Positions 3,457 through 39,069 of a DNA stretch of 42,491 bases are shown in pieces. The DNA is from a virus. Location: the IMG/VR virus record IMGVR_UViG_3300025921_000039, positions 1 to 42,491 of that record. One strand, 5' to 3'. A program made the translations under genes and the position numbers. The notes below the pieces were generated by a model. It worked only from the letters and a program-made list of their open reading frames with translations, was not told where the DNA came from and did not search any database. How positions within the stretch are numbered: position 1 is the first letter of the stretch; each line of letters opens with the position of its first letter.

Positions 3457-3536
3457 CGCGGAGCCACCGACAGGACCACGAGGGCCACGATGCCCAGCAG
3501 GCCGACGATGACGAGGACGTAGGCGAAGCGGGTCAT
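3453..3536 (-). CDS. 27-aa single-span membrane peptide
   Basis: ATG 3536 to TGA 3453 encodes MTRFAYVLVIVGLLGIVALV followed by VLSVAPR. It is almost entirely one hydrophobic helix with a positive C-terminus. Both ends use CGATGA-type stop/start overlaps with neighbours, which argues that it is translated. It resembles tiny phage membrane effectors, but no function can be assigned. Confidence 0.55.
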   Translation of the reverse strand: MTRFAYVLVIVGLLGIVALVVLSVAPR

Positions 3537-3616
3537 CGGGACACCGCCGTCAGGGCGATGAAGATGAAGCACACGGCGACGAACGCCAGCCCATCGAGGA
3601 CGTCCTGTCGAGTCAT
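3533..3616 (-). CDS. 27-aa single-span membrane peptide
   Basis: ATG 3616 to TGA 3533 encodes a peptide beginning MTRQDVLDGLAFVAV and continuing CFIFIALTAVSR. It has a short charged head and one hydrophobic span. It is the same length as the next gene, has the same MTR start and the same kind of Arg-stop end, and is joined to it by an ATGA overlap. The pair may have arisen by duplication, or may simply be similar minimal membrane peptides. Confidence 0.55.
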   Translation of the reverse strand: MTRQDVLDGLAFVAVCFIFIALTAVSR

Positions 3617-3660
3617 CGGGGCGGCTCGTAGGGCGGGAAGTCGGTCGGACGACAGGTCAC
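3613..3660 (-). CDS. 15-codon micro-ORF linking two coupled genes
   Basis: GTG 3660 overlaps the stop of the zinc-ribbon gene (GTGA). The frame reads 15 residues (VTCRPTDFPPYEPPR) and ends in a TGA that overlaps ATG 3616. It may be a real micropeptide or may only carry ribosomes from one gene to the next. Confidence 0.35.
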   Translation of the reverse strand: MTCRPTDFPPYEPPR

Positions 3661-3836
3661 GCCACGAGCTCCTTGGCGGCAAGACGTCGCTGCTGTGCCC
3701 GACGCACCCACTCGGGGATGGCCTGAACAGGACGGCAGACGCACGCCGCGGGCGGGTTCTCGCAGCCCTGACAGACCCGAATCCCTGACGGGAAGTCGAG
3801 GTGAGTGCGGTTGTCGCACTGGCCGCAGCGGTTCAT
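3657..3836 (-). CDS. 59-aa zinc-ribbon protein
   Basis: ATG 3836 overlaps the stop of the HNH gene (ATGA). The product begins MNRCGQCDNRTHLDF, then has CQGC and CVC, so at least three Cys clusters (Cys4, Cys7, Cys22, Cys25, Cys33, Cys35) could form one or two zinc sites. The C-terminal third is basic and helical (VRRAQQRRLAAKELVA). Small zinc ribbons like this are common in phage early regions and may bind nucleic acid or host proteins. No specific role can be assigned. Confidence 0.7.
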   Translation of the reverse strand: MNRCGQCDNRTHLDFPSGIRVCQGCENPPAACVCRPVQAIPEWVRRAQQRRLAAKELVA

Positions 3837-4330
3837 GCGGCGACCGCCTGACGCTCGTCGACCCAGATGAGGCCGTTGACGATCCTGCTGATCGTGGCGT
3901 GATTGACGCCGTACTCACGGGCCATCGCCCGGACACCGGCACGCTTGCCGCGTCGCTTGATCTCAGCGACTTGCTCGGGCGACAGGACGCTCCTGATACC
4001 GCGCTGCACGTTCACCGCGTGGGTCACGAACTCCAGGTGGTCTGGATTGACGCACCACCGATTGCGGCACAGGTGATCGGGTTCCAGTCCGGTCGGGATC
4101 GGGCCAACGCGCAGGATGTAGGTGAGCAGGTGCGCCTGGTAGTAGATGCTCTGGATCGAGACGTGGCCGTAACCCGAGCCTGTTAGGCCACGAGTCCACC
4201 GCCAACAACCGTTCGCCTCGACGACGTACGACGCCCGAATCCGGTCGGCTGTCGATAGGCCCTTGTTGCGGCAGATCAGCAGCTCGTCGCGAGTCGGGTA
4301 GCGAACCATCGCCTGAGACTTCCGGCTCAT
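3833..4330 (-). CDS. HNH endonuclease with C-terminal helix-turn-helix
   Basis: This 165-residue protein has an HNH_3-type core at about 35-110: CWRWTRGLTGSGYGHV, AHLLTYILRVGPIPTGLEPDHLC, then NRWCVNPDHLEFVTHAVN. A C-terminal HTH follows, with LSPEQVAEIKRR, VRAMAREYGVNHATISRIV and NG. This is the usual layout of free-standing phage homing endonucleases, where the HTH helps find the target site. It is the second gene of the early operon, with ATGA overlaps at both ends. It could be a selfish element or could have a role in phage DNA processing. Confidence 0.85.
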   Translation of the reverse strand: MSRKSQAMVRYPTRDELLICRNKGLSTADRIRASYVVEANGCWRWTRGLTGSGYGHVSIQSIYYQAHLLTYILRVGPIPTGLEPDHLCRNRWCVNPDHLEFVTHAVNVQRGIRSVLSPEQVAEIKRRGKRAGVRAMAREYGVNHATISRIVNGLIWVDERQAVAA

Positions 4331-4530
4331 GCGGCCGGGGCGCGCCCGAGCCGCTTAGCTGCCGCCTCGGCCCGCTTCTCCCACTCCGCGCTAGGGGTCC
4401 GCTTGCCCTGTGCATAGGCGTAGATCGTCCACACCGGCGTGCCCAGAGCAGCAGCCAAATCGGTAATCGTCGCGCCGCGTTCGGTGAGGGTCCGGCGCCA
4501 CTCGGGCAAGTTGACTGTCGTGTCGGCCAT
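4327..4530 (-). CDS. Cro-like helix-turn-helix regulator
   Basis: This 67-residue HTH protein has the motif at about 20-45 (ITDLAAALGTPVWTIYAYAQ) followed by a charged GKRTPSAEWEKR helix region, as in short XRE/Cro repressors. It is the first gene of the leftward lytic operon and is divergent from the repressor-like gene at 4724. The -10 TACCTT ends six bases before its ATG, so the transcript probably starts at the AUG itself, and an operator lies between -35 and -10. It probably acts in the lysis/lysogeny choice, possibly binding the same operators as the opposing repressor. Confidence 0.78.
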   Translation of the reverse strand: MADTTVNLPEWRRTLTERGATITDLAAALGTPVWTIYAYAQGKRTPSAEWEKRAEAAAKRLGRAPAA

Positions 4531-21964: not shown

Positions 21965-23179
21965 TCATGCCGCCAGCAACTCGATCAGGAGCAGCTCGGC
22001 GTCGTCCGAGTTCGTGTCGTCCGGCGACAGGACGATGCCCTCGCCCACCGCTGACTGCGCGGTCTGCACCGAAAGTCCGGCACCGACGAGCCGCAGCAGG
22101 CCGCGTCCCGCTGCTGTCGCTGGTTCCTGCCACGGCTCGCCCGAGCCCGTGATGGCCGGGATCGGAACCACCGGCTCGGCTGGCGGCGTGACCAAGCCAC
22201 GGGCGATCGACACCTGTGCTGACTGCGAGGCTGCGCCGGCGGCCTGGAACGCTGCCCGGCGCGTGACCTGTGGCGTGACCGCGATGCCACCGTGCTTCCG
22301 CCAGCGACCGTAGCCCAGCGCCGTCTGTGCGCCCTGCGACGGCGAGCCGGTCCCCGTGATGGCGTTGGAGCCCGTCGCCCCGGTTCCTGCGGCCGTCTGT
22401 GGCTGCTGCGACGCTCCTGCCGACCCAATGAAGCGGAGCGAACCCTCGGCGACTGCTGTCTGTCCAGCCTGCGACTCCGAGGACGAGCCAACGAACCGCA
22501 GCAGCCCCGACGCTACCGCCGCCTGCGAACCCTGCGTCGTCGTGCCGGATGCTGAGAACTCCTCCTCGCCCGCCCCGGCCTCGTTCTGCGCCTGCTGACT
22601 TGTCGTGCCAGTGGCGATGAAGCGGAGCAGGGCCGAGCCGGCTGCCGACTGGCTCGTCTGACTCTCGGAACCTGTCGCGCGGAACCGCTCGGCTCCCGCT
22701 CCGCTCGCTGATTGGGATGCCTGGGATTGGGTATCGACTGCGATGAACCGCAGAAGCGCCGCGGCCGAAGCCGTCTGAGCCTGCTGGGACTGGGCACTCG
22801 TCGCCCGGAAGGCTTCGCGGCCTGTCCCCGATGCCGTCTGTGGCTGCTGGCTCGGGGCTGCGGTCCCGATGAACCGCTCCAGCGCTGTCGCGGCCGAGGT
22901 CTGAGACTGCTGCGACTCGGCCGAAGACGCCCGGAACCGTTCGAGGCCCGATGCTGCAGTCGTCTGCGGGGATTGGGCGGCGGCTCCGCTGGCGATGAAG
23001 CGAAGGCGGCCAGAACCTGCAGCCGTCTGGGACGCTTGGCTCTGGCCCGAGGTCGCGATGAACCGCTCTGTCCCAACGCCCGTCGTCGTCTGGGCCGCTT
23101 GTGACGGAGACCCCGTTCCGGCGAACGCCGGGACTTGGAAGACCGAGTGCTGAAAGACGTCGGGCTGGAAGACCGGCAT
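21965..23179 (-). CDS. Tandem-repeat virion protein (21-residue repeats)
   Basis: This is a 404-residue protein. Residues 1-18 show a five-residue period with Phe-Gln (VFQPD, VFQHS, VFQVP), common at the start of phage structural proteins. From 19 to 270 there are twelve perfect-length 21-residue repeats. Each unit begins F-[IRVA]-[AG]-[TS], has an invariant Gln at positions 9 and 12, and then T/S-rich and G/A-rich stretches ending ER or LR. Four more degenerate copies follow. The units lack charge and are rich in Ser, Thr, Gln, Ala and Gly. A beta-solenoid or extended fibre is plausible, and the Ser/Thr content would make a good O-glycosylation acceptor. It lies between virion genes, upstream of scaffold and capsid. 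The family is not known to me. Confidence 0.75.
   Translation of the reverse strand: MPVFQPDVFQHSVFQVPAFAGTGSPSQAAQTTTGVGTERFIATSGQSQASQTAAGSGRLRFIASGAAAQSPQTTAASGLERFRASSAESQQSQTSAATALERFIGTAAPSQQPQTASGTGREAFRATSAQSQQAQTASAAALLRFIAVDTQSQASQSASGAGAERFRATGSESQTSQSAAGSALLRFIATGTTSQQAQNEAGAGEEEFSASGTTTQGSQAAVASGLLRFVGSSSESQAGQTAVAEGSLRFIGSAGASQQPQTAAGTGATGSNAITGTGSPSQGAQTALGYGRWRKHGGIAVTPQVTRRAAFQAAGAASQSAQVSIARGLVTPPAEPVVPIPAITGSGEPWQEPATAAGRGLLRLVGAGLSVQTAQSAVGEGIVLSPDDTNSDDAELLLIELLAA
22370..23125 (-). repeat. Twelve tandem 63-bp coding repeats
   Basis: These are in-frame repeats encoding the 21-residue units of the virion repeat protein. Protein-level conservation (Phe1, Gln9, Gln12) is stronger than DNA identity, so the array is old and under selection. 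It is not a CRISPR array: there are no spacers. Confidence 0.85.
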
Positions 23180-26357: not shown

Positions 26358-27805
26358 CAGAAGGCCACCGTCGACGAGCGCTTCCTGGTCTGGTCAGGAC
26401 GGACTTCGGAGGCCAGCCACAGCGCCCGGATGGCGGCCAGCGCCGCAGGGATCGGGTGGTTGTCGTCGGCCCGGACTGCCTGGAACGAGCCCGTCTCGTC
26501 GTGCGGCTTGCGGGCCGTCCACGAGAGGTCGGTCCCCACGGCAGCGGAGTCGGTCCACTTGACCTTGCCGCCCTCGACGAGAGTGACGAACCGGGCCGAG
26601 GCGTTGGCGTACTTGCTCGCGCTGATGGATTCCTTGCGGAAGAAGAACTTGGCGAGCTGCGCGTCGGTCAGGGGGTCGAAACCGACGATCGGCACGCTCA
26701 TCCTCCGAGCCGTGTCGCGAAGATCCTTGCCGAGCAGGTCCGCGTCGATCGGATTGCCCGTGACATCGAACAGGAGCCGCAGGCCAAACCCGTCGGGTCG
26801 CGCCCACGCCACGGCCGCAGCAGCCCGCTTGCCTGATGGGTCCATCGACACAGCCATGAACGGGCGGGTTGGCTCCTCGAGCTCGGGAACCTGAGCCGAG
26901 GACCAGTCGATCTCGGACACCAGCCGCTCACGCAGGGTCACGACCCAGCGGCAGAGGTGCTCGGTTTCGTAGATCGAGATCGTCCCGGCGAGGCTGTTGG
27001 AGCGCAGCTCGTCGATGAGCGTCTGCTCGACCGCCGGATCGTGGCCGAGGGACGGGTTCGACTCTTGCCATCCCGCCATCTCGTCCACCTGACGGTCCGA
27101 ACCGGCCGACCACTCTAGGTAGGCGATGGCGGGATCCTCGCCGGCCCGCTTCTTGAGCGAGTTCAGGACGACCGACGTCTCGGTGCCGGCGTTGGAGAGG
27201 TAGACCATCTGCGGCTTCCTGGAGGCCGTCAGAGTCGGCTTGGCCGCGGCGATGAAGTCGAAGTCCTCCATCTCGCGCAACTCGTCGACGATGACGAGAT
27301 CGCGGGACGGACCTCGAGCCCCACCCCGCGTCGGGGCGACGATGGAGTAGACGCCGCCGTTCTTGAGTCGAATCTCCTCCTGGCCGTTGGCGAAGCGAGG
27401 CCGCGTGACCCGTCCCCGACGCGAGGGCAGCTCTTTGGCGTACTTCTCCTCGATGATGTCGGCGACGACGCCGAACACCTCCCGCGGCAGGTCCCGGTTC
27501 TGGGCGGTGTGCATGATCCGCTGCCCGGCCAGGAGCCGCTGGATGATGAGCGGCACGAGGATGGCCGTCTTGCCGTTCTGTCGGGCGACGATGACCGCCA
27601 CCTCGCGGAACAGCCAGCGCTTGTCCGGCGCCTCCGCGGTCAGATAGCGCGCGACGGTCTGCTGCCAGGGCCGCAGCGTTAGCCCGATGCCGGCGGAGAA
27701 CTCGGCGAACTCCTTGTAGCCCGACCGGGCAGGGACAGGCGGAGCGATGCGCGGCTTGTCGTGGCCGAACACCGCAGCGCGGCGGGGCGCTAGGGCAGCG
27801 GTCAC
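26357..27805 (-). CDS. terL: Terminase large subunit
   Basis: This is a 482-residue protein. The ATPase half has a Walker A-like VARQNGKT at 73-80 and Walker B VIVDEL at 171-176 with catalytic Glu175. The C-terminal nuclease half has an RNase H-like strand (MAVSMDPSGKRAAAAVAWAR) that supplies an acidic residue, and a later LGKDLRDTARRM region. It is the motor and headful or cos nuclease for DNA packaging. GTG 27805 overlaps the HNH gene upstream and the stop overlaps the portal gene. No small terminase is recognised; the HNH proteins just upstream may assist cutting. Confidence 0.92.
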   Translation of the reverse strand: MTAALAPRRAAVFGHDKPRIAPPVPARSGYKEFAEFSAGIGLTLRPWQQTVARYLTAEAPDKRWLFREVAVIVARQNGKTAILVPLIIQRLLAGQRIMHTAQNRDLPREVFGVVADIIEEKYAKELPSRRGRVTRPRFANGQEEIRLKNGGVYSIVAPTRGGARGPSRDLVIVDELREMEDFDFIAAAKPTLTASRKPQMVYLSNAGTETSVVLNSLKKRAGEDPAIAYLEWSAGSDRQVDEMAGWQESNPSLGHDPAVEQTLIDELRSNSLAGTISIYETEHLCRWVVTLRERLVSEIDWSSAQVPELEEPTRPFMAVSMDPSGKRAAAAVAWARPDGFGLRLLFDVTGNPIDADLLGKDLRDTARRMSVPIVGFDPLTDAQLAKFFFRKESISASKYANASARFVTLVEGGKVKWTDSAAVGTDLSWTARKPHDETGSFQAVRADDNHPIPAALAAIRALWLASEVRPDQTRKRSSTVAF

Positions 27806-28299
27806 GCGGCGACCCGAGCGGACTTCCGCTGGTTGCAGATCAGGTGGGCTAGCTGGACGTTCGCCTCGACGTGCTGGCCGCCCCGACTGAGCGGCAGGAT
27901 GTGGTCGAGCGTCGCGCTGAGAGGCGACTTGGCGGGTGCGTCAGGGTCGACCGGCTGGTGACACACGCCACACGCCCAGTCGTCGCGCTCGAAGATGCGT
28001 GTGCGGAAGATCAGCTCGGCGGGCTGGTTCGTCTTTCGGACCGCTCGGCGGAGATCCCGGTCAGCCTGTCGGTGATACCGGCTCCCACACGCTTGCGAGC
28101 AGAAGCGCCGACCCCGTGTACCGATGAACTCGGTCCGGCACGAGAGGCACGCGCGGACCGAACGCGGAAGAGCCTGCGAACCCTCCCGTGCCTGGCGACG
28201 AGTCCAAGCACGGCTTGGCTGACACGACTGTCGGCAGTAGCGGCGAGGCGGCCCGAACCGCGCTTGCGGGATCTCGCCGCCGCATGTCGGACACGTCAC
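27802..28299 (-). CDS. HNH endonuclease with N-terminal zinc fingers
   Basis: This is a 165-residue protein. The N-terminus has two zinc-finger-like units: CPTC with YCRQSC, then CLSC with FCSQAC and GSRYH. The C-terminal half is a classical HNH nuclease (FERDDWACGVCHQPVDPDAP, LDHILPLSRGGQHVEANVQL, AHLICNQRK). It lies directly before the large terminase, where HNH proteins in several phages help cos cleavage. GTG 28299 overlaps the stop upstream. Confidence 0.87.
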   Translation of the reverse strand: MTCPTCGGEIPQARFGPPRRYCRQSCQPSRAWTRRQAREGSQALPRSVRACLSCRTEFIGTRGRRFCSQACGSRYHRQADRDLRRAVRKTNQPAELIFRTRIFERDDWACGVCHQPVDPDAPAKSPLSATLDHILPLSRGGQHVEANVQLAHLICNQRKSARVAA

Positions 28300-28742
28300 C
28301 GGGTGTAGTCCTTGGTGACCACCGCCGTCGGCCGATCCTTGATGGACCGGATCTCGCGGTCATGCCGAGCGACGACGCCGCGGGCGTAGTTGTGGTAGCG
28401 GCACGCTGCGCGCAGGTTCGTCGGGGCGAAGAACTCGCTGTCGGGCATACCGGGATAGACCTCGACGATGTGGTCGGCAATCGTGGCTCGGGTTTGGCAG
28501 CCAGGAACGACCTGGCACACGCCATTATCCCGGCGGAGAATGGCCTTGGCGAGCTTTTTCCACCGATTTGTGTGGTATCGGGCGTCTTCGCGCTTTCGGG
28601 GGAGAGAGATTTCGCGAGTCGCGGGTCGCGTGGCCTCGATCTCCTCGTTTATATGCTCCCACCCGTCGCTCCCACGTCCCATCTCGCGCATCGAACTTGA
28701 CACGCGCGTGGCGGGATTGCGGTTGACGATGATCTCCGTCAC
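28296..28742 (-). CDS. HNH endonuclease
   Basis: This is a 148-residue protein from GTG 28742 (GTGA overlap). The HNH core at about 70-130 is complete: YHTNRWKKLAKAILRRDNGV, C, then IADHIVEVYPGMPDSEFFAP, TNLRAACRYHNYARG. It is second of two HNH genes just before the terminase, so packaging-linked cleavage is likely. The N-terminal 60 residues are polar and of unknown role. Confidence 0.85.
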   Translation of the reverse strand: MTEIIVNRNPATRVSSSMREMGRGSDGWEHINEEIEATRPATREISLPRKREDARYHTNRWKKLAKAILRRDNGVCQVVPGCQTRATIADHIVEVYPGMPDSEFFAPTNLRAACRYHNYARGVVARHDREIRSIKDRPTAVVTKDYTR

Positions 28743-29080
28743 GACGACACCGGGAACGCCGACGTCCATGCCGGGTCGTCATGCCAGTGCTCGATGCCCT
28801 TGCCCGTGATGAGCGTCGTAAGCCGTTCGATGACCCACTCCTGGCTGCGCGTCCACTGTCCGCGGAGGAATGCTGCAGCCGACTCGCCATGCTCCGTCAG
28901 CGCCCGCGTCACGTCGATGTCGTGGCTGGCCCGCTCCTCGTCGTCAGGGGCGATAGGCGCGAAGCGGATCTCCCACTCCTGTAGCGAGAGGACGCCCTGC
29001 CACGCTGCGATGTGGGCGTTCATCTCGTCCACGTCGACGCCATCGGCGAAGGGCTTGGTCCACTCGGGCAGGGCTACCAC
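28739..29080 (-). CDS. Hypothetical protein, 113 aa
   Basis: This is a 113-residue protein from GTG 29080. GGAGGT lies nine bases upstream, and the start overlaps the last codons of the secreted barrel protein. It contains WQGVLSLQEWEIRFAPIAPD, then RSQEWVIERLTTLITGKGIE. The first part resembles the opening of phage zincin-like peptidases, but no HExxH motif is present, so it would be inactive if related. It could alternatively be a terminase or packaging accessory. Confidence 0.6.
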   Translation of the reverse strand: MVALPEWTKPFADGVDVDEMNAHIAAWQGVLSLQEWEIRFAPIAPDDEERASHDIDVTRALTEHGESAAAFLRGQWTRSQEWVIERLTTLITGKGIEHWHDDPAWTSAFPVSS

Positions 29081-29631
29081 GAGACGCTCACCTCCACGAC
29101 GCCCCTCGAGAGTGGCGCGAGCCGCTGGAAGGGTGCGGCGTACAAGTCGATCGTCTTGGAGGACGAGCCGCACCAGTCCACCAACTGCACCAGCACGCTT
29201 CGGCTCCCTGCTCGCACCGTCACGACGCGGCCCCGCCACTTCGGCCCGATGGCATCGCGGAGTCGGCCGCACGCGGCGGCGACCATCGAGCCGACTGGGT
29301 AGCGGTAGTGGCAGATGGGGTGGGCGGGGGAGCAGTAGAACGATGCTTGACCGCGAATCCGCCCCTGCCTGGATCCGGCGTCTTTGGCAACGGCACGCGG
29401 AGGGTTGGCTGGGAGTCGGGGAGTGGAACGGACCGCACTGACGGGCAGCGGGCGCACCACTGGTCGACGAGCAGGCCGGTCTCGCTCCGCCAGACGGTCT
29501 TGCCCTCCCACCGATGCAACCCGATCCGGCACAGCGCCCACCCAAACAACCCCCTCATCCGCCCGTCTCCCGACCGTGACGGACGAGAGCAGGAGGAGAG
29601 CCGAGAGGGCGAGGGCCGTGAGCGTACGCAT
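29074..29631 (-). CDS. Secreted double-psi beta-barrel protein (RlpA-like)
   Basis: This is a 185-residue protein. The N-terminus is a signal peptide (MRTLTALALSALLLLSSVTV, then G). A long Arg/Pro-rich linker follows, and residues about 95-185 form a double-psi barrel: GQASFYCSPAHP, MVAAACGRLRDAIGPKWRGR, VVTVRAGSRSVLVQLVDWCG, IDLYAAPF, LSRGVVEVSV. Such barrels occur in RlpA and expansin-like proteins that bind or cut peptidoglycan. It lies in the lysis block, so it may weaken the cell wall or bind it. The linker is also read in another frame (29220-29558), so overlapping coding is possible. Confidence 0.65.
   Translation of the reverse strand: MRTLTALALSALLLLSSVTVGRRADEGVVWVGAVPDRVASVGGQDRLAERDRPARRPVVRPLPVSAVRSTPRLPANPPRAVAKDAGSRQGRIRGQASFYCSPAHPICHYRYPVGSMVAAACGRLRDAIGPKWRGRVVTVRAGSRSVLVQLVDWCGSSSKTIDLYAAPFQRLAPLSRGVVEVSVSW
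29220..29558 (-). CDS. Out-of-frame ORF nested in the barrel gene
   Basis: ATG 29558 has GGGAG eight bases upstream. The frame reads MRGLFGWALCRIGLHRWEGK, then TVWRSETGLLVDQWCARC and a Pro/Ser-rich tail, 112 residues. The N-terminal half looks like a small zinc-binding protein (C, H, CxxC). The region it covers is the low-complexity linker of the barrel protein, so both may be translated, or one is a shadow. The tail past about residue 70 is probably not informative. Confidence 0.4.
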   Translation of the reverse strand: MRGLFGWALCRIGLHRWEGKTVWRSETGLLVDQWCARCPSVRSVPLPDSQPTLRVPLPKTPDPGRGGFAVKHRSTAPPPTPSATTATQSARWSPPRAADSAMPSGRSGGAAS

Positions 29632-29643
29632 CGCGAGCCATGG

Positions 29644-29742
29644 CTAGAAGTGGAGCCCCAACTGGCCCGCCGCCCAGACGAGCAGGAACACCACGACGAT
29701 GATCACGATGAGCTGGGTGAGCCAGCTCGGGATAGCGCTCAT
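29644..29742 (-). CDS. 32-aa single-span membrane protein, holin-like
   Basis: ATG 29742 overlaps the stop of the holin-like gene. The product begins MSAIPSWLTQLIVIIVVVFL and ends LVWAAGQLGLHF, one hydrophobic helix with short ends. Its place in the lysis block suggests a second holin, a pinholin or an antiholin, but a short membrane helix alone does not prove this. Confidence 0.55.
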   Translation of the reverse strand: MSAIPSWLTQLIVIIVVVFLLVWAAGQLGLHF

Positions 29743-30113
29743 TCGGTCGGCACCGGGTTCACGACCTCGGCCGCAGCCTCGGCCTTGGTTACCGGCTCCT
29801 CGGACGGCTTCGGCGGGACGATGTTGCCCTTGATGGAGCTAAGCGTCTCCGCCGCGTAGGCGGTCAAACCGCCAGCGGCGAAGGTCAGGAGCAGGCCGTC
29901 GTTGGCGAAGTAGCCGCCGGCGAGCAGGGCTGCCAGCGGAGCCACCCGGCCGAGGATGTGCTTGCGCAGGAACGCCGCGAGGACGTCGAGCTTGAACGTC
30001 CCGTCCCGGAGCGCGGCGAATGAGCCGGTGAGGAAGTCGAGGACGGCCGCGACGAGCGCGCCCTTGAGGGCGATGCCCGGCGTGCTGTCGAGGAACGCCT
30101 GGAGTTCGTTCAT
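29739..30113 (-). CDS. Holin-like membrane protein
   Basis: This is a 124-residue protein with two or three hydrophobic segments (about 17-34, 55-70 and 73-88: LKGALVAAVLDFLTGSFAAL, VAPLAALLAGGYFA, LLLTFAAGGLTAYAA). The C-terminal tail is polar and Glu/Pro-rich. The size, topology and position beside the lysin-like gene fit a holin. Both ends carry ATGA overlaps. Confidence 0.68.
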   Translation of the reverse strand: MNELQAFLDSTPGIALKGALVAAVLDFLTGSFAALRDGTFKLDVLAAFLRKHILGRVAPLAALLAGGYFANDGLLLTFAAGGLTAYAAETLSSIKGNIVPPKPSEEPVTKAEAAAEVVNPVPTE

Positions 30114-30229
30114 GGCTTGGCCTCCGCGTCGCCGCCATCGGAGTCGGCGTCCGGCTCCGGTACGGTGTCGTTCTCGGGCTCCGCAGAGGTGTCCTCGTCG
30201 GGAGGCGGAGCGTTCGTCTCGGTTTCCAT
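30110..30229 (-). CDS. Small acidic protein, 39 aa
   Basis: ATG 30229 has an excellent GGAGGTCTGAC just upstream. The product is very acidic and disordered (METETNAPPPDEDTSAEPEN, then repeats of D, E, P). It lies between the lysin and holin-like genes. No function is recognised. Confidence 0.6.
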   Translation of the reverse strand: METETNAPPPDEDTSAEPENDTVPEPDADSDGGDAEAKP

Positions 30230-30230
30230 G

Positions 30231-31010
30231 TCAGACCTCCTTGGCCCATGTGGAACGGATGTATTGCCCGGACCGAGCCCCGCTGGTGAGCCGGACGAGC
30301 GACTGCGCCGTGTGGCCCGGCCAGCGGTACAACCGGGGAGCGGTGCAGCTTGCCGAGAACCCGCCGGTGGTGGCGAAGCGGCCGCCGAGGAGGGTGTCGT
30401 CGACCACGGTGTAGACGCCGAACTGCCCTGCCGGGACAACCGCCCGGTAGGCGGCCACCTTGTCCCGTGTCAAGGCGGCGTAGGTCAGACCAGAGCCGAG
30501 GAGCGAACCTCCGCCCGTCACGTCCAGCTTCCCGGCGAATGCCTTGAGGAGCGCCTGCGGGTATGCCTCGCCGTGGTACTTGTAGATGCCGGCTCGTCGT
30601 CCGTCGGCAAGGGGATCCATGACGATCCAGCCCGGCAGGACCGTCACCGCGTGGTTGCCACGGAACCCCCCGCCCGCGTCGAATCGGCTATCGGCAATCG
30701 GCCCGTAGCCGCCTTGGAGGATGGCGCCCTTGCCCTGGTCGATGGCGGCTGCGAATGACGTCCACGGGAAGCGGTAGCGGGTGTCGAGGTCGATCTGCCA
30801 GCCCTTGAGCAGGGCGGCATCGACCTGCGCGAGCGTCGTCCCGCCCGATGAGTCGCCGGTCACCTTCCGCACGCTCGCCCCGGTCATCACGAACGACTTG
30901 CCCTGATCGAAGGCGGCGGCCATCGCGCCGGCGTAGCAGGTGCACGAGCTCCAGCCGAGCGGATAGCCGTTGATGGCGGGATTTTGAGCCTGAAAAGTTG
31001 GTGTGATCAT
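30231..31010 (-). CDS. Endolysin-like cysteine peptidase (C39/papain-fold)
   Basis: This 259-residue protein has the marks of a C39-like cysteine peptidase: WSSCTCYAGAMAAAF with Cys25 (or Cys23) at the start of a helix, then GNHAVTVLPGWIVMDPLADG with His120 and Asp132. Peptidases of this type form one domain of several actinophage endolysins. A C-terminal beta domain may bind the wall. With the holin-like gene next to it, this is the best candidate lysin. Its present ATG 31010 has no Shine-Dalgarno and its first about 11 codons are AT-rich; a displaced copy of the start lies beyond the inserted HNH gene. Confidence 0.68.
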   Translation of the reverse strand: MITPTFQAQNPAINGYPLGWSSCTCYAGAMAAAFDQGKSFVMTGASVRKVTGDSSGGTTLAQVDAALLKGWQIDLDTRYRFPWTSFAAAIDQGKGAILQGGYGPIADSRFDAGGGFRGNHAVTVLPGWIVMDPLADGRRAGIYKYHGEAYPQALLKAFAGKLDVTGGGSLLGSGLTYAALTRDKVAAYRAVVPAGQFGVYTVVDDTLLGGRFATTGGFSASCTAPRLYRWPGHTAQSLVRLTSGARSGQYIRSTWAKEV

Positions 31011-31021
31011 GCCGAGGTTGG

Positions 31022-31030
31022 TGCTATAAT
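31022..31030 (+). promoter_or_regulatory. Extended -10 promoter (TGCTATAAT) of the inserted HNH gene
   Basis: TG-C-TATAAT is a perfect extended -10. It ends six bases before ATG 31037, so the transcript should begin at the start codon (leaderless). It lies between the divergent lysin and HNH genes. Confidence 0.7.
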
Positions 31031-31036
31031 CTCGGG

Positions 31037-31534
31037 ATGAGACGACCGCTTGCGGATCGGTTCTGGGAGAAGGTGGAGAAGGGACCGGGATGCTGGCTTT
31101 GGCGCGGCGCTACGACCGGCAGGGGCTACGGAGCCATAGGCGCAGGCGGGAAGGGCGGCCGAATGCTGGTCGCCCATCGAGTCGCCTTGATCCTGTCGGG
31201 CGTCGAACTCCCTGACGAGGCGATGGCCTGTCATCGCTGCGATGTCCGGGCTTGCGTGCGCCCGAGCCACCTCTATGTCGGGTCGTCCACGACGAACAAC
31301 CGCGACACGGCCGCTAGGAACCCACTTGCCAGATTGCGTCCGCCATCGACCGGCCAGCACATCAGCGAGGGTCTCCGAGCACACTTCGCCGTCCAGCCCC
31401 GCGCCCGACTGACGTACTGCAAGCGAGGCCACGAGTTCACTGAGGCGAACAGCCAGTGGAACAAGCGCACCGGCAAGCGGCAGTGCCGAACCTGCCAGCG
31501 CGACAGCCTGCGGGCTCGCCGACACGCCGCCTGA
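31037..31534 (+). CDS. Plus-strand HNH homing-type endonuclease inserted at the lysin start
   Basis: This is a 165-residue HNH_3-type nuclease: RFWEKVEKGPGCWLWRGATT, MLVAHRVALILSGVELPDEA, CHRCDVRACVRPSHLYVGSS, then TNNRDTAAR. A C-terminal zinc-finger-like part follows (YCKRGHEF, CRTCQRD). It reads against the late operon. It sits between the zinc-protein gene at 31552 and the lysin, and separates a displaced MILPTF start from the lysin's MITPTF start. This is what insertion of a free-standing homing gene into codon 7 or so of the lysin would look like. It has its own leaderless promoter. Confidence 0.87.
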   Translation: MRRPLADRFWEKVEKGPGCWLWRGATTGRGYGAIGAGGKGGRMLVAHRVALILSGVELPDEAMACHRCDVRACVRPSHLYVGSSTTNNRDTAARNPLARLRPPSTGQHISEGLRAHFAVQPRARLTYCKRGHEFTEANSQWNKRTGKRQCRTCQRDSLRARRHAA

Positions 31535-31555
31535 ACGGAACGTCGGCAGGATCAT
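31535..31555 (-). pseudogene. Displaced original 5' end of the lysin gene
   Basis: ATG 31555 overlaps the stop of the upstream zinc-protein gene (ATGA), as genes in this operon normally do. It reads MILPTFR and then runs into sequence antisense to the HNH gene. The lysin now begins MITPTFQ at 31010. The match and the coupling suggest that this is the old start cut off by the insertion. Confidence 0.6.
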
Positions 31556-31737
31556 GCGGGCGCCTCCTCGTCATGGAGGACGAGCCTTGTGCAGGTCTCG
31601 CAGCTCTTCTCGTCGAGAGGCAGGCTCGGCGAGGTCGGCGCGTCCGCGGGCAGCGTCCGGCCGCAGCGGGTCCGGTGCGTGCCGCCGCGGTAGGTGAAGG
31701 CGTAGACGTGCCACGAACGGGCCTTGATCCAGCTCAT
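31552..31737 (-). CDS. 61-aa zinc-binding protein
   Basis: ATG 31737 overlaps the stop of the beta-helix gene (ATGA). The product has MSWIKARSWHVYAFTYRGGT, then HRTRCGRTL and SCETCTRLV, giving a likely Cys/His zinc site. Short proteins of this type are common in actinophage late regions. No specific role can be assigned. Confidence 0.62.
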   Translation of the reverse strand: MSWIKARSWHVYAFTYRGGTHRTRCGRTLPADAPTSPSLPLDEKSCETCTRLVLHDEEAPA

Positions 31738-32741
31738 CCCGCCACCCACACGTTCCCGGACTGCGTGAACGACGACGGCCCGTTGCCCTCGCCGGTGTAG
31801 ACGATCGGGGAGTAGGGCTGCCCTGCGACGCCGCCGTAGGAGGTGCCGACCTTGTTGTCGGTCAGGTAGTCGCCCTGGAGGCCGGCGAGCATGATCGGCT
31901 GGAGGGGCGCGCCGCCCGGCTTCTGGACAGCCCTTGTGACGGAGTTGCGGGCGATCGTGAAGTTCAGGGGGTGCGTCAGGGTCTGCGTCCCTGCCGGGGT
32001 GGGGCTACCGGCGATGAAGATTCCTCTGGGGCAGCCTTCGATGTGGTTGTCCGTGATCTGGACGCGCGTCCCGGCGTGAGCATTGACCCCCTGCCACAGC
32101 GGGACGTCCGCAATGGAGACGCCTTGGATCAGGCAGTCCGAGCAGGGCGGGTCGGTCGTTACGTTCGCGCTCTCGCTGCGGTTCAGCATCACCCCGTAGG
32201 CGTTGTTGCCCTGGAACCCGGTGGCCGGGTCCTTGGTGAACCCGATCCTGCTGATGGAGCCGCCGGTCACGGTCAGGTGGTCGCAGGAGAAGGCCGCGAT
32301 GCCCGCGTAGTCGCAGTCCGCGATATCGGGATCCTCGATGACGAGGCTCGAGACCTTGGTCGCGTAGATGCCGAGCCGGAAGCCCCGGATGTGGGGCCGG
32401 ATCAGGCGGACGTTGGTGAGGCCCGTCAGGGTGAACGCGGAGCCCAGCAGGGTCGTGTCGGTGATCTCGAGGTCGGTGTATGTCTGGTCGGACTTGCCGA
32501 CGATGGGCGGACTCTTGGTAGGGGTCGGAGCGGGAGTCGGCATCGGCGTCGGAGCGGGCACCGCGGCCTGCTCCAGCTTCGACACGCGGATCGTCAGGGC
32601 GTCGACCTGCGACTGGAGCTTCGCATCGCCGTCCTTGCGGGCCTGGATCTCGGCGGCGAGGGCCGTCACCGGAGCCCCACCAAGGGCGACGGATGCCACT
32701 GCCATCCCACCGCCGACCAGGAACCCGCGACGAGTGACCAC
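31734..32741 (-). CDS. Tat-signal right-handed beta-helix protein
   Basis: This 335-residue protein starts at GTG 32741, ten bases after the stop upstream. It opens MVTRRGFLVGGGMAVASVAL, then GGAPVTALAAE, a twin-arginine (Tat) signal with a likely AxA cleavage site. A short coiled coil (VDALTIRVSKLEQ) and a Pro/Thr linker (PAPTPMPTPAPTPTKSPP) follow. The rest is a parallel beta-helix with repeated short strands (ADCDYAGIAAFSCDHLTVTG, NAYGVMLNRSESANV, GVNAHAGTRVQITDNHIEG). Beta-helices often bind or cut polysaccharide. The signal suggests that the host secretes it folded, which is unusual for a phage protein; a depolymerase, adhesin or lysogenic-conversion factor is possible. Confidence 0.72.
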   Translation of the reverse strand: MVTRRGFLVGGGMAVASVALGGAPVTALAAEIQARKDGDAKLQSQVDALTIRVSKLEQAAVPAPTPMPTPAPTPTKSPPIVGKSDQTYTDLEITDTTLLGSAFTLTGLTNVRLIRPHIRGFRLGIYATKVSSLVIEDPDIADCDYAGIAAFSCDHLTVTGGSISRIGFTKDPATGFQGNNAYGVMLNRSESANVTTDPPCSDCLIQGVSIADVPLWQGVNAHAGTRVQITDNHIEGCPRGIFIAGSPTPAGTQTLTHPLNFTIARNSVTRAVQKPGGAPLQPIMLAGLQGDYLTDNKVGTSYGGVAGQPYSPIVYTGEGNGPSSFTQSGNVWVAG

Positions 32742-32751
32742 GAGGGATACA

Positions 32752-33051
32752 TCAGTGGCCCCGTGGCCAGTCGATGCGGCGCTTGTCCGTCTCGGGCGGC
32801 GTGCAGACCGGGCAATAGGGCTTGGAGCACATGATGTAAGGCGGGGACGGAGGCTCGGGGTCGTCGAGCTCGGCCCGGAACGAGCGGAGGGCCAGCAGGG
32901 CGAACTGGTGCGCGCCTTCGGCCTCGGCATACCGGCCCTCGGCGATTGCCACCTGCTCTTCCTCGGCCCAGTGGTCGTGCGCCGCTGCCAGCATCCGCAG
33001 GGCGGTGCTCCGGGCCATCGCGTCGCGGAGGACGGAGATGGGGGTGCTCAT
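32752..33051 (-). CDS. Hypothetical protein, 99 aa, helical with Cys motif
   Basis: This is a 99-residue protein, mostly helical (RDAMARSTALRMLAAAHDHW, EGAHQFALLALRSFRAELDD). A C-terminal MCSKPYCPVCTPP could bind metal. It overlaps the membrane-protein gene upstream (ATGA). No family is recognised. Confidence 0.62.
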   Translation of the reverse strand: MSTPISVLRDAMARSTALRMLAAAHDHWAEEEQVAIAEGRYAEAEGAHQFALLALRSFRAELDDPEPPSPPYIMCSKPYCPVCTPPETDKRRIDWPRGH

Positions 33052-33991: not shown

Positions 33992-34219
33992 TCAGGCGGC
34001 TTTCGGCAGCCTCAATCGTGCGGGATCGATGAAGCCCCGCTGGACCGCGATGGCGAACGCCTGTCCGCTATGAGCCGCACCGAAGACCGCTTGGAGGTCC
34101 GAAAGGACGTGCCGGACGGTGTGGGGGTGGATGCCCAGCCGTCGCGCAGCCTCGGTCGTGTTCCGGCACTCGATCCACGTCGCAAGTACCTGGAGTTGCC
34201 GCGCGGTCGGTTCAGGCAT
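33992..34219 (-). CDS. LuxR/GerE-type helix-turn-helix regulator
   Basis: This is a 75-residue protein from ATG 34219, eight bases inside the HNH gene. Nearly all of it is a LuxR-type HTH (EPTARQLQVLATWIECRNTT, EAARRLGIHPHTVRHVLSDL). There is no receiver or sensor part. As the second gene of the late operon, it may turn on late genes or adjust host genes. An ATG-overlap start supports it; the longer upstream frame is a shadow. Confidence 0.72.
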   Translation of the reverse strand: MPEPTARQLQVLATWIECRNTTEAARRLGIHPHTVRHVLSDLQAVFGAAHSGQAFAIAVQRGFIDPARLRLPKAA

Positions 34220-34754
34220 CGACGAGGGGCGCGTCGCGCTTGCCGTCGTTGCAGTCCTCGCACGCAGCCGCGAGGTTGTCGGGCTCGGACGTCCCGCCAT
34301 CGACGACCGGGATGCGATGGTCAACGACAAGCCTGATGCCGTCGTCCGGCGTGGCCCCGCAATAGACGCAGCGGTGGCCATCCCGCTCAAGGATCAGCCA
34401 GCGCACCCGCTTGCTGATGGACGTTCGCTTGCGCCGGCCGTGCGACAGCTCCCACTCGGCCCTGATGGTGCGTCTCTGGACGCGGGCCTCGGGCGTATGC
34501 GGCCCACCAATGACGGTCCTGAGTTGGCCAACCTCCGCCTCCAGGTCCTCGATCGCGTGGAGAGCAGTCGCCATCTCGCGGAGTCCCATCCGGTCGCGGA
34601 CGGCGGCCTCCAGGGAGTCGCCGTCGATCCGCCACGATCGACCTTCCTTGTGGCCGACGAGCTCGCCTCGCTTGACCATCAGCACGGCCAACTCGGAGCT
34701 GTTGTACTTCAGCCCGAGCATCACCGCGGCCTCTCGAGTCGTGTATGTCGTCAC
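34212..34754 (-). CDS. HNH endonuclease with N-terminal HTH
   Basis: This is a 180-residue protein. An N-terminal excisionase/MerR-like HTH (TREAAVMLGLKYNSSELAVL, GHKEGRSWRIDGDSLEAAVR) is followed by a coiled stretch (ALHAIEDLEAEVGQL). A complete C-terminal HNH follows (LILERDGHRCVYCGATPDDG, VVDHRIPVVDGGTSEPDNLA, AACEDCNDGKRD). GTG 34754 is chosen because the -10 TACAAT lies exactly six bases before it, and GGAGGT also overlaps. It is first in the late operon. A free-standing homing nuclease is likely, although a specific regulatory role cannot be excluded. Confidence 0.82.
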   Translation of the reverse strand: MTTYTTREAAVMLGLKYNSSELAVLMVKRGELVGHKEGRSWRIDGDSLEAAVRDRMGLREMATALHAIEDLEAEVGQLRTVIGGPHTPEARVQRRTIRAEWELSHGRRKRTSISKRVRWLILERDGHRCVYCGATPDDGIRLVVDHRIPVVDGGTSEPDNLAAACEDCNDGKRDAPLVDA

Positions 34755-34760
34755 CGCACC

Positions 34761-34766
34761 ATTGTA
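34761..34766 (-). promoter_or_regulatory. TACAAT -10 element, probable leaderless late promoter
   Basis: On the minus strand TACAAT ends six bases before GTG 34754, the same spacing seen at 4530, 12096 and 31037. No good -35 is seen, so an activator might be needed. Confidence 0.5.
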
Positions 34767-34984
34767 CCTCCATCGGCTGGCCAACCGGCTGCCTATCGCC
34801 GCAAACCCTGCTACAAGCTGCTACAAGATTTTCGGGATTTCCCCGATTGCACAGGCCCGAATCGGCCTTGTCGTGCGGGCCGTCAGCCCCGGTGAACTAT
34901 CCCGGCAGTATTGTGATTGGCGTGCGTGGGAGAGGCGATGTCATGCCTCAGGCTGCCTAACGGGCTGGCTAACTGCCGGGAGCG
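34767..34984. other. Non-coding spacer between the integration and late operons
   Basis: No convincing gene lies here. It holds a tandem ten-base repeat (ctgctacaag twice, near 34806-34827), an AT-richer patch with gattttcgggatttccccga, paired CCCGGCAG (34901-34908) and CTGCCGGG (34973-34980), and related ggctg/taac blocks near 34777 and 34952-34973. These may be regulator or integrase arm sites, so this is one candidate for the attachment region, but no core can be named. Confidence 0.45.
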
Positions 34985-38026: not shown

Positions 38027-38199
38027 GCCGCCCGAGCCCGGATATACCGCTGGATCTCGGACTCCCGGATGAAGGTGGAGCCGCGGACCTTGACGAAGCG
38101 GATGCGGCCGGCCTTCTGTTCGCGATAGAGTGTCCAGCGGCTGACCGCCAAGTAGTCCTCGGCGGCACGTTGGAGCGGGATCAGGCGATCGACCGTCAC
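38023..38199 (-). CDS. Excisionase-like HTH protein
   Basis: This is a 58-residue protein from GTG 38199 (GTGA overlap). Nearly all of it is a winged HTH of the excisionase/MerR-like type (IPLQRAAEDYLAVSRWTLYR, EQKAGRIRFVKVRGSTFIRE, then SEIQRYI). It shares the operon with the integrase, so it may act as the recombination directionality factor. A transcription factor role is equally possible. Confidence 0.75.
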   Translation of the reverse strand: MTVDRLIPLQRAAEDYLAVSRWTLYREQKAGRIRFVKVRGSTFIRESEIQRYIRARAA

Positions 38200-38624
38200 G
38201 CCGCGTCCAGGTGCGTGCGCTTGTGGTGACTCGGACACAGCCACACGACATCGAGTTGAGACTCGGGACCATAGCCGTGCGGGTGATGAGCCTGGGCCGG
38301 CATGTCCCCGCAGACGCCGCATGGCCCGCGAACCAACAGCCCCCTCTGGATCGCGACCCAGACCGCTCGATACGCGCGGTTCTGCTCAGGCGTGATGACT
38401 ACCGGTTTGGTGAGGTGCGCCGCCCGCCTCCGTTGTTTCGCCCGCCTCTGGATCTCTCGATACTTCTCAGGGTGGCGCTGCTTGTACAGCTTCCCGTTGC
38501 GCGCCACGGTGGCCCGGTGGCAGGTCAGGCAGGCGGTCCACGGGCGGCCCCTATTCCGCTTGATCTTCGTGTTCTCCGGCGTCAGTTCGTGACCCTTCCG
38601 GCAGTGCGTCCTGTCCTTGCTCAC
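38196..38624 (-). CDS. HNH-like zinc-binding protein
   Basis: This is a 142-residue protein from GTG 38624, with GGAGGT nine bases upstream. The N-terminus has CRKGHE and CLTC, and the middle is very basic (YREIQRRAKQRRRAAHLTKP). The C-terminus has CGVCG, then AHHPHGYG and VVWLCPSHHKRTH, an HNH-like or degenerate HNH arrangement seen in many phages. It heads the integration operon and diverges from the plus-strand operon around the palindrome at 38722. Nuclease activity is not certain. Confidence 0.7.
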   Translation of the reverse strand: MSKDRTHCRKGHELTPENTKIKRNRGRPWTACLTCHRATVARNGKLYKQRHPEKYREIQRRAKQRRRAAHLTKPVVITPEQNRAYRAVWVAIQRGLLVRGPCGVCGDMPAQAHHPHGYGPESQLDVVWLCPSHHKRTHLDAA

Positions 38625-38712
38625 CCTCCCGCCACCTCCCTGGCGGTGTCGGGGGGTCATGGGGTACGAGATGACCGGGCTACGCCCGGAGCGCGGGGCG
38701 CCAGATTGCCTC

Positions 38713-38741
38713 TTGACAATCTCTACGCTAGGGTAGATAGT
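38713..38741 (+). promoter_or_regulatory. Rightward promoter of the 38748 operon
   Basis: TTGACA (38713-38718), a 17-base spacer and GATAGT (38736-38741) form a promoter whose -10 ends six bases before ATG 38748, again predicting a leaderless message. The spacer holds the palindrome at 38722-38737. Confidence 0.68.
38722..38737. promoter_or_regulatory. Palindromic operator between divergent operons
   Basis: TCTACGCTAGGGTAGA is a 16-base near-perfect palindrome (7 of 8 pairs) centred on CTAG. It lies between -35 and -10 of the rightward promoter and next to a possible minus-strand promoter (TTGCGG, 18 bases, TACTAT at 38743-38738). One regulator could control both operons. The CTAG centre recalls the immunity operators, but the flanks differ. 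Confidence 0.6.
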
Positions 38742-38747
38742 ATTGGC

Positions 38748-38876
38748 ATGAAGACCTGCACCGCAACCAACAAGAACGGCAAGCCCTGTAAGCGGATCGG
38801 ATACAACTGGCCGCAGATCGGCCGGGTGCTCTGCCCACCGCACGCGATGGCCCTGGCCACCAAGAAGACGGCCTGA
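38748..38876 (+). CDS. 42-aa small zinc-binding protein
   Basis: ATG 38748 starts a 42-residue protein: MKTCTATNKNGKPCKRIGYN, then WPQIGRVLCPPHAMALATKK. Cys4, Cys14, Cys29 and His32 could form one zinc site. It is first in a short plus-strand operon, with its -10 six bases upstream. No family is recognised. Confidence 0.62.
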   Translation: MKTCTATNKNGKPCKRIGYNWPQIGRVLCPPHAMALATKKTA

Positions 38877-38879
38877 CCA

Positions 38880-39069
38880 ATGGACCACGAGACTATCCAC
38901 GCCAGAGTCCGGGGCCAGGGCTCGGCTCATCAAGACGCCATGTCGCCGGATCACGCCGGACGGACGGCCGTTCGGCTACGTCTGCACGAACTGCGGCCGC
39001 GAGCTGCGCGAGACCAAGACGGGCTGGTTCCGGCACACGGACATCCAGCGCGAGCGCGGCAACTGGTGA
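38880..39069 (+). CDS. Small zinc-ribbon protein, start or frame uncertain
   Basis: The frame of 38881-39069 reads RLIKTPCRRITPDGRPFGYV, then CTNCGRELRETKTGWFRHTD and IQRERGNW, a convincing zinc ribbon (C-x18-C-x2-C with a later His). It has no ATG, GTG or TTG start in frame. ATG 38880, just after the upstream stop, is in the frame one base before. A single extra base, for example in the GGGG at about 38911-38914, would explain this; a ribosomal shift is the alternative. The TGA overlaps the GTG of the next gene (GTGA), which supports the frame. Confidence 0.5.

Follow-up and report, generated by a model that had tools for sequence, protein, structure and literature searches.

An HNH endonuclease gene that appears to have interrupted a phage lysin gene and restored its N-terminus, with similar arrangements at other phage gene ends

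A putative lysin gene of an environmental phage is preceded by an HNH endonuclease gene on the opposite strand and, beyond it, by what resembles a second copy of the first lysin codons, raising the question of whether the nuclease gene interrupted the lysin and supplied it with a new beginning. The window, that is, the whole stretch of DNA analyzed, is an IMG/VR virus record of 42,491 nt (42.5 kb) with a G+C content of 68%. Within it, a tightly packed minus-strand operon runs from a NosD-like gene (stop at 31734) through a small Cys-containing gene to the lysin (31010-30231), and the HNH gene sits on the plus strand between the latter two (Table 1). An earlier note on this DNA had placed the HNH gene between two lysin starts, and all of the elements were located as described there.

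Table 1. Features of the lysin locus in the window and comparable gene ends in other phages (positions are those of the window unless another locus is named)
Feature	Position	Strand	Basis or remark
Small Cys-containing gene, 61 aa (SWHV...TRCGR...EKSCETC)	31552..31737	-	53% identity to L004 protein; L007 copy read
Vestige of native lysin start, ATGATCCTGCCGACGTTCCGT (MILPTFR)	31535..31555	-	Codons as in L005/L006
HNH (His-Me finger) homing-type endonuclease gene, 165 aa, antisense to lysin operon	31037..31534	+	phrog_826
Extended -10 promoter TGCTATAAT	31022..31030	+	Single match in window
Replacement lysin N-terminus, 9 codons, ATG ATC ACA CCA ACT TTT CAG GCT CAA	30984..31010	-	AT3 P = 1.3e-5
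Lysin body, candidate papain/C39-like cysteine peptidase fold and all-beta C-terminal part	30231..30983	-	Alignment with five relatives; AlphaFold
Inserted cassette, putative extent ~553 bp: replacement N-terminus, promoter and HNH gene	30984..31536	.	Junctions of native and foreign sequence, by comparison with L005/L006
Antisense open frame, 182 codons, vestige ATG to TGA overlapping new lysin ATG	31007..31555	-	ORF reading
UDG start, 32 residues duplicated	L028/L030		PF03167 E 2e-20
Recombinase-like start, broken after AYLR	L049		Flank comparison
Phage lysozyme start, a second lysin start	L165 2403-3674, HNH in sense orientation		PF00959 E 3e-7
VRR-NUC-like gene, 3' end	L056		Flank comparison
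3' end, ~37 residues	L090		Flank comparison
3' end of gene before HNH	L143 HNH 3578-4114		HNH_3 E 1.4e-12

Two beginnings of the lysin can be read at this locus. The upstream one, referred to here as the vestige, abuts the HNH stop codon and reads ATG ATC CTG CCG ACG TTC CGT (MILPTFR); as had been noted, its ATG at 31555 is still coupled by ATGA to the upstream gene, whose stop at 31552 overlaps the vestige start. The present lysin start at 31010 reads ATG ATC ACA CCA ACT TTT CAG GCT CAA AAT (MITPTFQAQN), and the duplication in the window extends to the start context ATGATC and the TGA within it. No Shine-Dalgarno sequence is visible ahead of the new start. The two beginnings had been called near-identical, which holds for the protein (5/7 residues) but not for the DNA (13/21 bases, 62%), the codons for P, T and F all being different; the present end is thus conserved in protein, divergent in DNA and in frame with an open lysin. 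Chance likeness was ruled out by the relatives lacking the HNH gene, described below, and by heptapeptide counts, since among ~19,400 ATG-initiated heptapeptides (window and other loci) the vestige alone has at least five identities to MITPTFQ, and no other heptapeptide within the window reaches even four. The present start had also been described as AT-rich, unlike the rest of the gene; this was borne out, except that the run comprises codons 3-10 rather than the first 11 or so. The third base is A or T in seven of codons 2-10, compared with 12% in the remaining gene (a binomial comparison; Table 1), a count reached by just 7 of 8800 nine-codon stretches taken from the window's other genes. 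AT-rich starts as a genome-wide trait were rejected, other genes typically having 0-3 such codons in nine.

Scans of IMG/VR yielded lysin relatives with readable starts in five contigs (L003-L007) and one partial relative. An HNH gene was absent from the lysin start in all five (0/5), each of which has a single uninterrupted start. The earlier note had proposed looking for an intact, continuous start in relatives lacking the HNH gene, and such starts were found: L005 reads VSFVRPTFQPQNPAINGYYLGW, L006 reads MSFTRPTFQPQNPAINGYYLGW and L003 reads ..LPTFQPQ. At the DNA level, L005 (GTG AGC TTC GTC CGC CCG ACG TTT CAG CCG CAG AAT CCC GCC ATC AAC GGG) and L006 (ATG AGC TTC ACC CGC CCG ACG TTC CAG CCG CAG AAC CCC) share ..RPTFQPQNPAINGYYLGW with the codons of the vestige (CCG ACG TTC in L006). 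The vestige stretch CTG CCG ACG TTC C agrees with the native codons of both, its native match running to TTCC (31537), and its CCGACGTTCC is identical in L006. The present lysin start departs from the native codons (CCA ACT TTT CAG GCT CAA, against CCG ACG TTC CAG CCG CAG in L006) and rejoins them at AAT CCC GCC ATC AAC. L004 and L007 also have this small Cys-containing gene, there placed immediately against the lysin or overlapping it. Because of the codons in L005/L006 and the gene adjacency in L004/L007, the vestige was identified as the native start, the break was placed after TTC C, in the codon for a conserved Q, and the inserted block was placed at about 30984-31536. This agrees with the claim that the insert interrupted the lysin near codon 7 and brought a replacement N-terminus; MILPTF was found in no other gene and the AT-rich start in no relative lacking the HNH gene, either of which would have spoken against it. 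At the level of sequence, the insertion, the duplicated end and the native origin of the vestige can be regarded as demonstrated. No lysin relative above ~57% protein identity, close enough to show what this lineage looked like before the insertion, came from the scans; searches of bacterial genomes and cultured phages found no lysin relative, and the contigs reached through terminase relatives, as a route to closer loci, stop before the lysin.

The HNH protein matches phrog_826 (E 4e-32), a large phage HNH endonuclease family, as well as Pfam HNH_3 (E 1e-3) and zf-His_Me_endon (E 5e-5), both below the curated cut-offs; a PDB sequence search with the HNH profile gave zero matches. Residues H66, C68, D69, C73, H78 and N87 are invariant and common to the other cassette HNH proteins, and the phrog_826 match, together with the conserved H66, H78, N87 and Cys/His residues, identifies the catalytic domain of an HNH (His-Me finger) homing-type endonuclease. 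The gene was also said to have its own extended -10 promoter, and TGCTATAAT is indeed a perfect match; TGNTATAAT occurs once in the 42.5 kb, at 31022-31030, with 0.01 occurrences expected. Because it ends just six bases ahead of the HNH ATG, the HNH message is probably leaderless. The antisense frame through the HNH gene, whose openness is not significant as evidence (16% of antisense 181-codon windows are equally open here), closes with an ATGA that overlaps the new lysin start, so that an ATGA junction is present at both starts. Since this frame is open from 31555 to 31007 and ends in this way, it is conceivable that ribosomes coupled to the upstream gene could still pass along it to the lysin.

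The locus is most probably an end-restoring homing endonuclease cassette, with a cycle of cutting, copying and a rewritten end. In this reading, an HNH gene with its own promoter inserted antisense into lysin codon 7, after CTG CCG ACG TTC C, supplying a nine-codon replacement N-terminus of differing codons that now starts the lysin and leaving the original first codons as the vestige. The lysin keeps its full frame because the replacement N-terminus of the cassette now begins the gene. The nuclease would recognize and cut the intact native start in a co-infecting, cassette-free phage, and repair of the break, templated by the cassette allele, would copy the HNH gene and the replacement end together, with the vestige and the upstream gene as the homology arm on one side and the lysin body on the other. 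The rewriting keeps the protein, as seen from the intact frames; it may also remove the cut site from both junctions, so that no re-cutting occurs, and lower the identity between the direct copies, so that recombination does not delete the cassette.

Beyond what the earlier note had covered, the same arrangement recurred in other environmental phages at both 5' and 3' gene ends, including a second lysin start (Table 1). The shared anatomy of the 5' type is vestige, HNH gene and replacement end joined to the gene body, and that of the 3' type is gene body with replacement end, HNH gene and vestige. The closest relatives of the HNH protein, in L009 and L010 (43% identity), are likewise encoded antisense at gene ends. 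In both of these contigs, an HNH gene precedes a head-tail adaptor gene, and identity between them is ~92-95% over this HNH gene and the first 12-14 codons of the adaptor, dropping to ~70% beyond; L093, which lacks the adaptor HNH gene, has other codons at the adaptor start (CTG..CGC TTC CGC vs TTG..CGG TTT AGG). No vestige is visible in the L009/L010 adaptor case. The capsid gene of L009 and L093 is interrupted close to the 3' end by a second HNH gene; its coding sequence finishes in rewritten form (..ATT CGC/AGA GTG AAA GTT GCA TCG TAA), and the vestige AGG GTG AAG GTC GCC TCC TGA (RVKVAS*) lies beyond the HNH gene. L010, without the capsid HNH gene, has a GC-rich capsid end of the vestige's type, and all 12 informative codons differ between the L009 and L010 capsid ends (5.2 expected; 14 codons compared). 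The HNH gene is thus polymorphic in its presence, being absent from the lysin start of L003-L007, and L009, L010 and L093 provide reciprocal empty sites. The rewritten capsid tract spans ~16 codons in L009 (5850-5940) and 7 in L093 (3400-3470), the vestiges being identical, a difference in length that suggests a single donor with two separate crossover points and is expected under variable co-conversion. As judged from the aligned contigs, these cases establish recurrence and the co-transfer of rewritten ends with the HNH gene. At the lysozyme start in L165, the vestige is MTDSSRFVPDLIHWEGNV and the new start, MDVAKFIPDLIRWESSV, overlaps the HNH stop. In L143, the gene ahead of the HNH gene terminates in YPWAHNPWVWVLSFRRVEQ*, and a further YPVESNPWVFVLSFRRAV* lies beyond the HNH gene; the same gene in the cultured phages F116, BgManors32 and Chronis ends NPWVWV(V/I)EF, with no annotated HNH gene after it.

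The frequency of duplicated ends was assessed through a flank-against-flank peptide comparison of ~145 HNH loci with control ORFs, a test that misses short duplications such as the window's own seven codons, which by themselves fail it. Scores of at least 50 were obtained for 4/145 HNH flanks vs 1/339 control ORFs (Fisher P = 0.03, with L143 counted as HNH); the top score among the 340 "controls", found blind, was that of L143, where the ORF turned out to encode an HNH protein. When random stretches from these loci served as the background, the first HNH set had six loci scoring 38 or above, with 1.8 expected, and the second IMG/VR set showed little excess, with L165 alone clear. Low-complexity flank matches in L086, L097 and L052 were set aside as chance. 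Among 19 HNH genes in 16 cultured-phage regions, duplicated ends were found at none (0/19). End replacement is a minority habit of the large HNH family, because of this count, even with a test blind to short duplications, and because the second set gave just L165 as a clear case.

The replacement start could instead have come from a diverged homologous lysin through illegitimate or mosaic recombination, with the HNH gene a passenger at the breakpoint and the rewriting without a role in homing. The pooled codon differences between copies number 38, vs 37.5 for two independent draws, as would be expected of two long-separated homologues, and nuclease genes at phage exchange boundaries are known (PMC10448857). 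Because the pooled differences equal two independent draws, they do not support a claim of selection against re-cutting, and an old, diverged donor end would fit them as well as such selection would. A passenger, however, need not sit exactly between the vestige and the replacement, whereas in every case the restored end, 5' or 3', is confined to a tract of a few to ~37 codons next to the HNH gene, and HNH gene and rewritten end move together as a single block, which makes this origin unlikely. It is far less probable that no interruption took place, with a free-standing HNH gene lying in an intergenic spacer, a lysin that always began MITPTFQ and a coincidental MILPTFR. The likeness does extend over seven codons at 62% DNA identity, for which the generic flank test is not significant, but the vestige occupies the exact ATGA position of the native start beside the same upstream gene as in L004/L007 and carries the native codons of L005/L006; its heptapeptide is unique and the relatives are uninterrupted.

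It could also be argued that the AT-rich codons were selected for translation initiation after loss of the coupled start and its ribosome-binding site, and not for escape from the nuclease. Weakly folded, AT-rich starts aid initiation, and the new start has no visible Shine-Dalgarno sequence. Most other genes here nevertheless do without such starts, ATGA coupling is again present at 31007-31010, and selection of this kind, which appears quite improbable, cannot account for the rewritten 3' ends (capsid gene, L009/L093). HNH genes are common in phage introns, and an HNH gene within a self-splicing intron or intein would allow the native start to be rejoined to the lysin body. Outside the HNH gene and the two starts, however, there are 26 bases in all, the HNH gene is antisense to the lysin, and an Rfam search of 29500-33000 gave zero matches at E values up to 1; no intron RNA was found. 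With no self-splicing element of the group I intron or intein kind found around the nuclease gene, splicing is scarcely credible here.

As a parallel for an end-restoring cassette, the earlier note had pointed to homing genes in fungal mitochondria, and correctly so (PMC3630166). Mobile ORFs carrying a replacement C-terminus are described there for Allomyces macrogynus atp6, Glomus atp6, atp9, cox2 and nad3, Rhizopus atp9 and Mortierella cox2; in Glomus atp6, the inserted end matches the native one at 63.5% of bases and 91% of residues, and an old, foreign end has been argued as the origin (PMC3630166). As in the fungal ORFs, an endonuclease gene lies in a coding gene, the native end remains as a vestige (here with native codons) and the inserted end conserves the protein and diverges in DNA, with 64-81% DNA identity of the fungal inserted ends to the ends of relatives (PMC3630166) and 61-71% between native and replacement copies in most of the phage cases. 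The fungal ORFs encode LAGLIDADG or GIY-YIG enzymes and replace C-terminal ends in mtDNA, whereas the phage genes encode HNH proteins at 5' and 3' ends, sense or antisense, and the window cassette differs further in having its own promoter. Because it is a phage HNH cassette with an N-terminal replacement, it would work like the fungal type without being a member of it.

Free-standing phage HNH genes such as T4 mobA-mobE and the I-HmuI-like genes of Skunavirus (PMC2988022, PMC12724721) resemble the present case in being free-standing HNH genes for which co-conversion of the flanks is expected; they are mostly intergenic with intact neighbors, whereas the present cassettes interrupt their target gene and substitute its end. 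Genes-in-pieces also have an HNH gene inside a conserved coding region (mobE in Aeh1 nrdA, mobA in T4 gene 60; PMC2988022), but there two polypeptides must reassemble, whereas here one polypeptide is restored, the lysin being continuous from 31010 and the vestige just seven codons. HomeR drives carry 22-27 re-coded codons beyond the cut site, plus foreign sequence against unwanted conversion; they likewise combine a cutter in the end of an essential gene, a re-coded rescuing end and measures against unwanted gene conversion; HomeR is a synthetic CRISPR system in Drosophila, and the likeness is an analogy in working only (PMC7968924). In phage reviews and surveys (PMC2988022, PMC10448857, PMC12724721), the passages found deal with introns, inteins, intergenic genes and split genes and make no mention of a restored gene end; further searches of the one paper collection used yielded no phage case. 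As far as these sources go, end replacement is known from fungal mitochondria and is apparently undescribed for phages.

On balance, the evidence tips slightly toward phages carrying a recurrent, undescribed natural home-and-rescue class, in which HNH cassettes would cut genes at conserved ends and supply a rewritten substitute resistant to cutting, at 5' and 3' ends and in either orientation, thereby occupying essential coding regions with no need for an intron or intein and exchanging gene ends while spreading. Homing genes are thought to persist in essential genes via introns, inteins or, rarely, working pieces, and otherwise to be intergenic; end replacement would be a further route into essential genes. 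It predicts precise cut sites, at the vestige-body junction, and would explain some of the abnormal codon stretches and short gene-end fragments beside HNH genes in phage annotations. Such cassettes would also be natural examples of the rescue principle of synthetic gene drives, in organisms that are easy to handle.

The target gene itself gave zero matches to Pfam and PHROG families. Its AlphaFold model (pLDDT 80) is papain-like in the N-terminal half and all-beta in the C-terminal half, with Cys25, His120 and Asp132 as candidate catalytic residues, and the best Foldseek matches in the PDB were mostly clan CA cysteine peptidases, among them the pseudomurein endoisopeptidase PeiR and a C39-like peptidase. 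As the best E values were 0.004-0.06, with none at or below 0.001, the assignment of a papain/C39-like fold is suggestive only. The replaced lysin residues all precede the candidate catalytic Cys25.

The window contains five further HNH-like genes on the minus strand (3833-4330, 27802-28299, 28296-28769, 34212-34784 and 38196-38954), around which no clear duplicated gene ends were found, 28296-28769 being borderline (1/60 nulls). Also on the minus strand, at 21965-23179, near the capsid and portal genes, a 404-aa protein of degenerate repeats (SQ.SQTA.G.G..RF.A) is encoded. In L028, the UDG-superfamily gene at 3465-4478 continues into a region resembling a polymerase before ending at 337 aa, and phage homologues of this protein are annotated as DNA polymerase.
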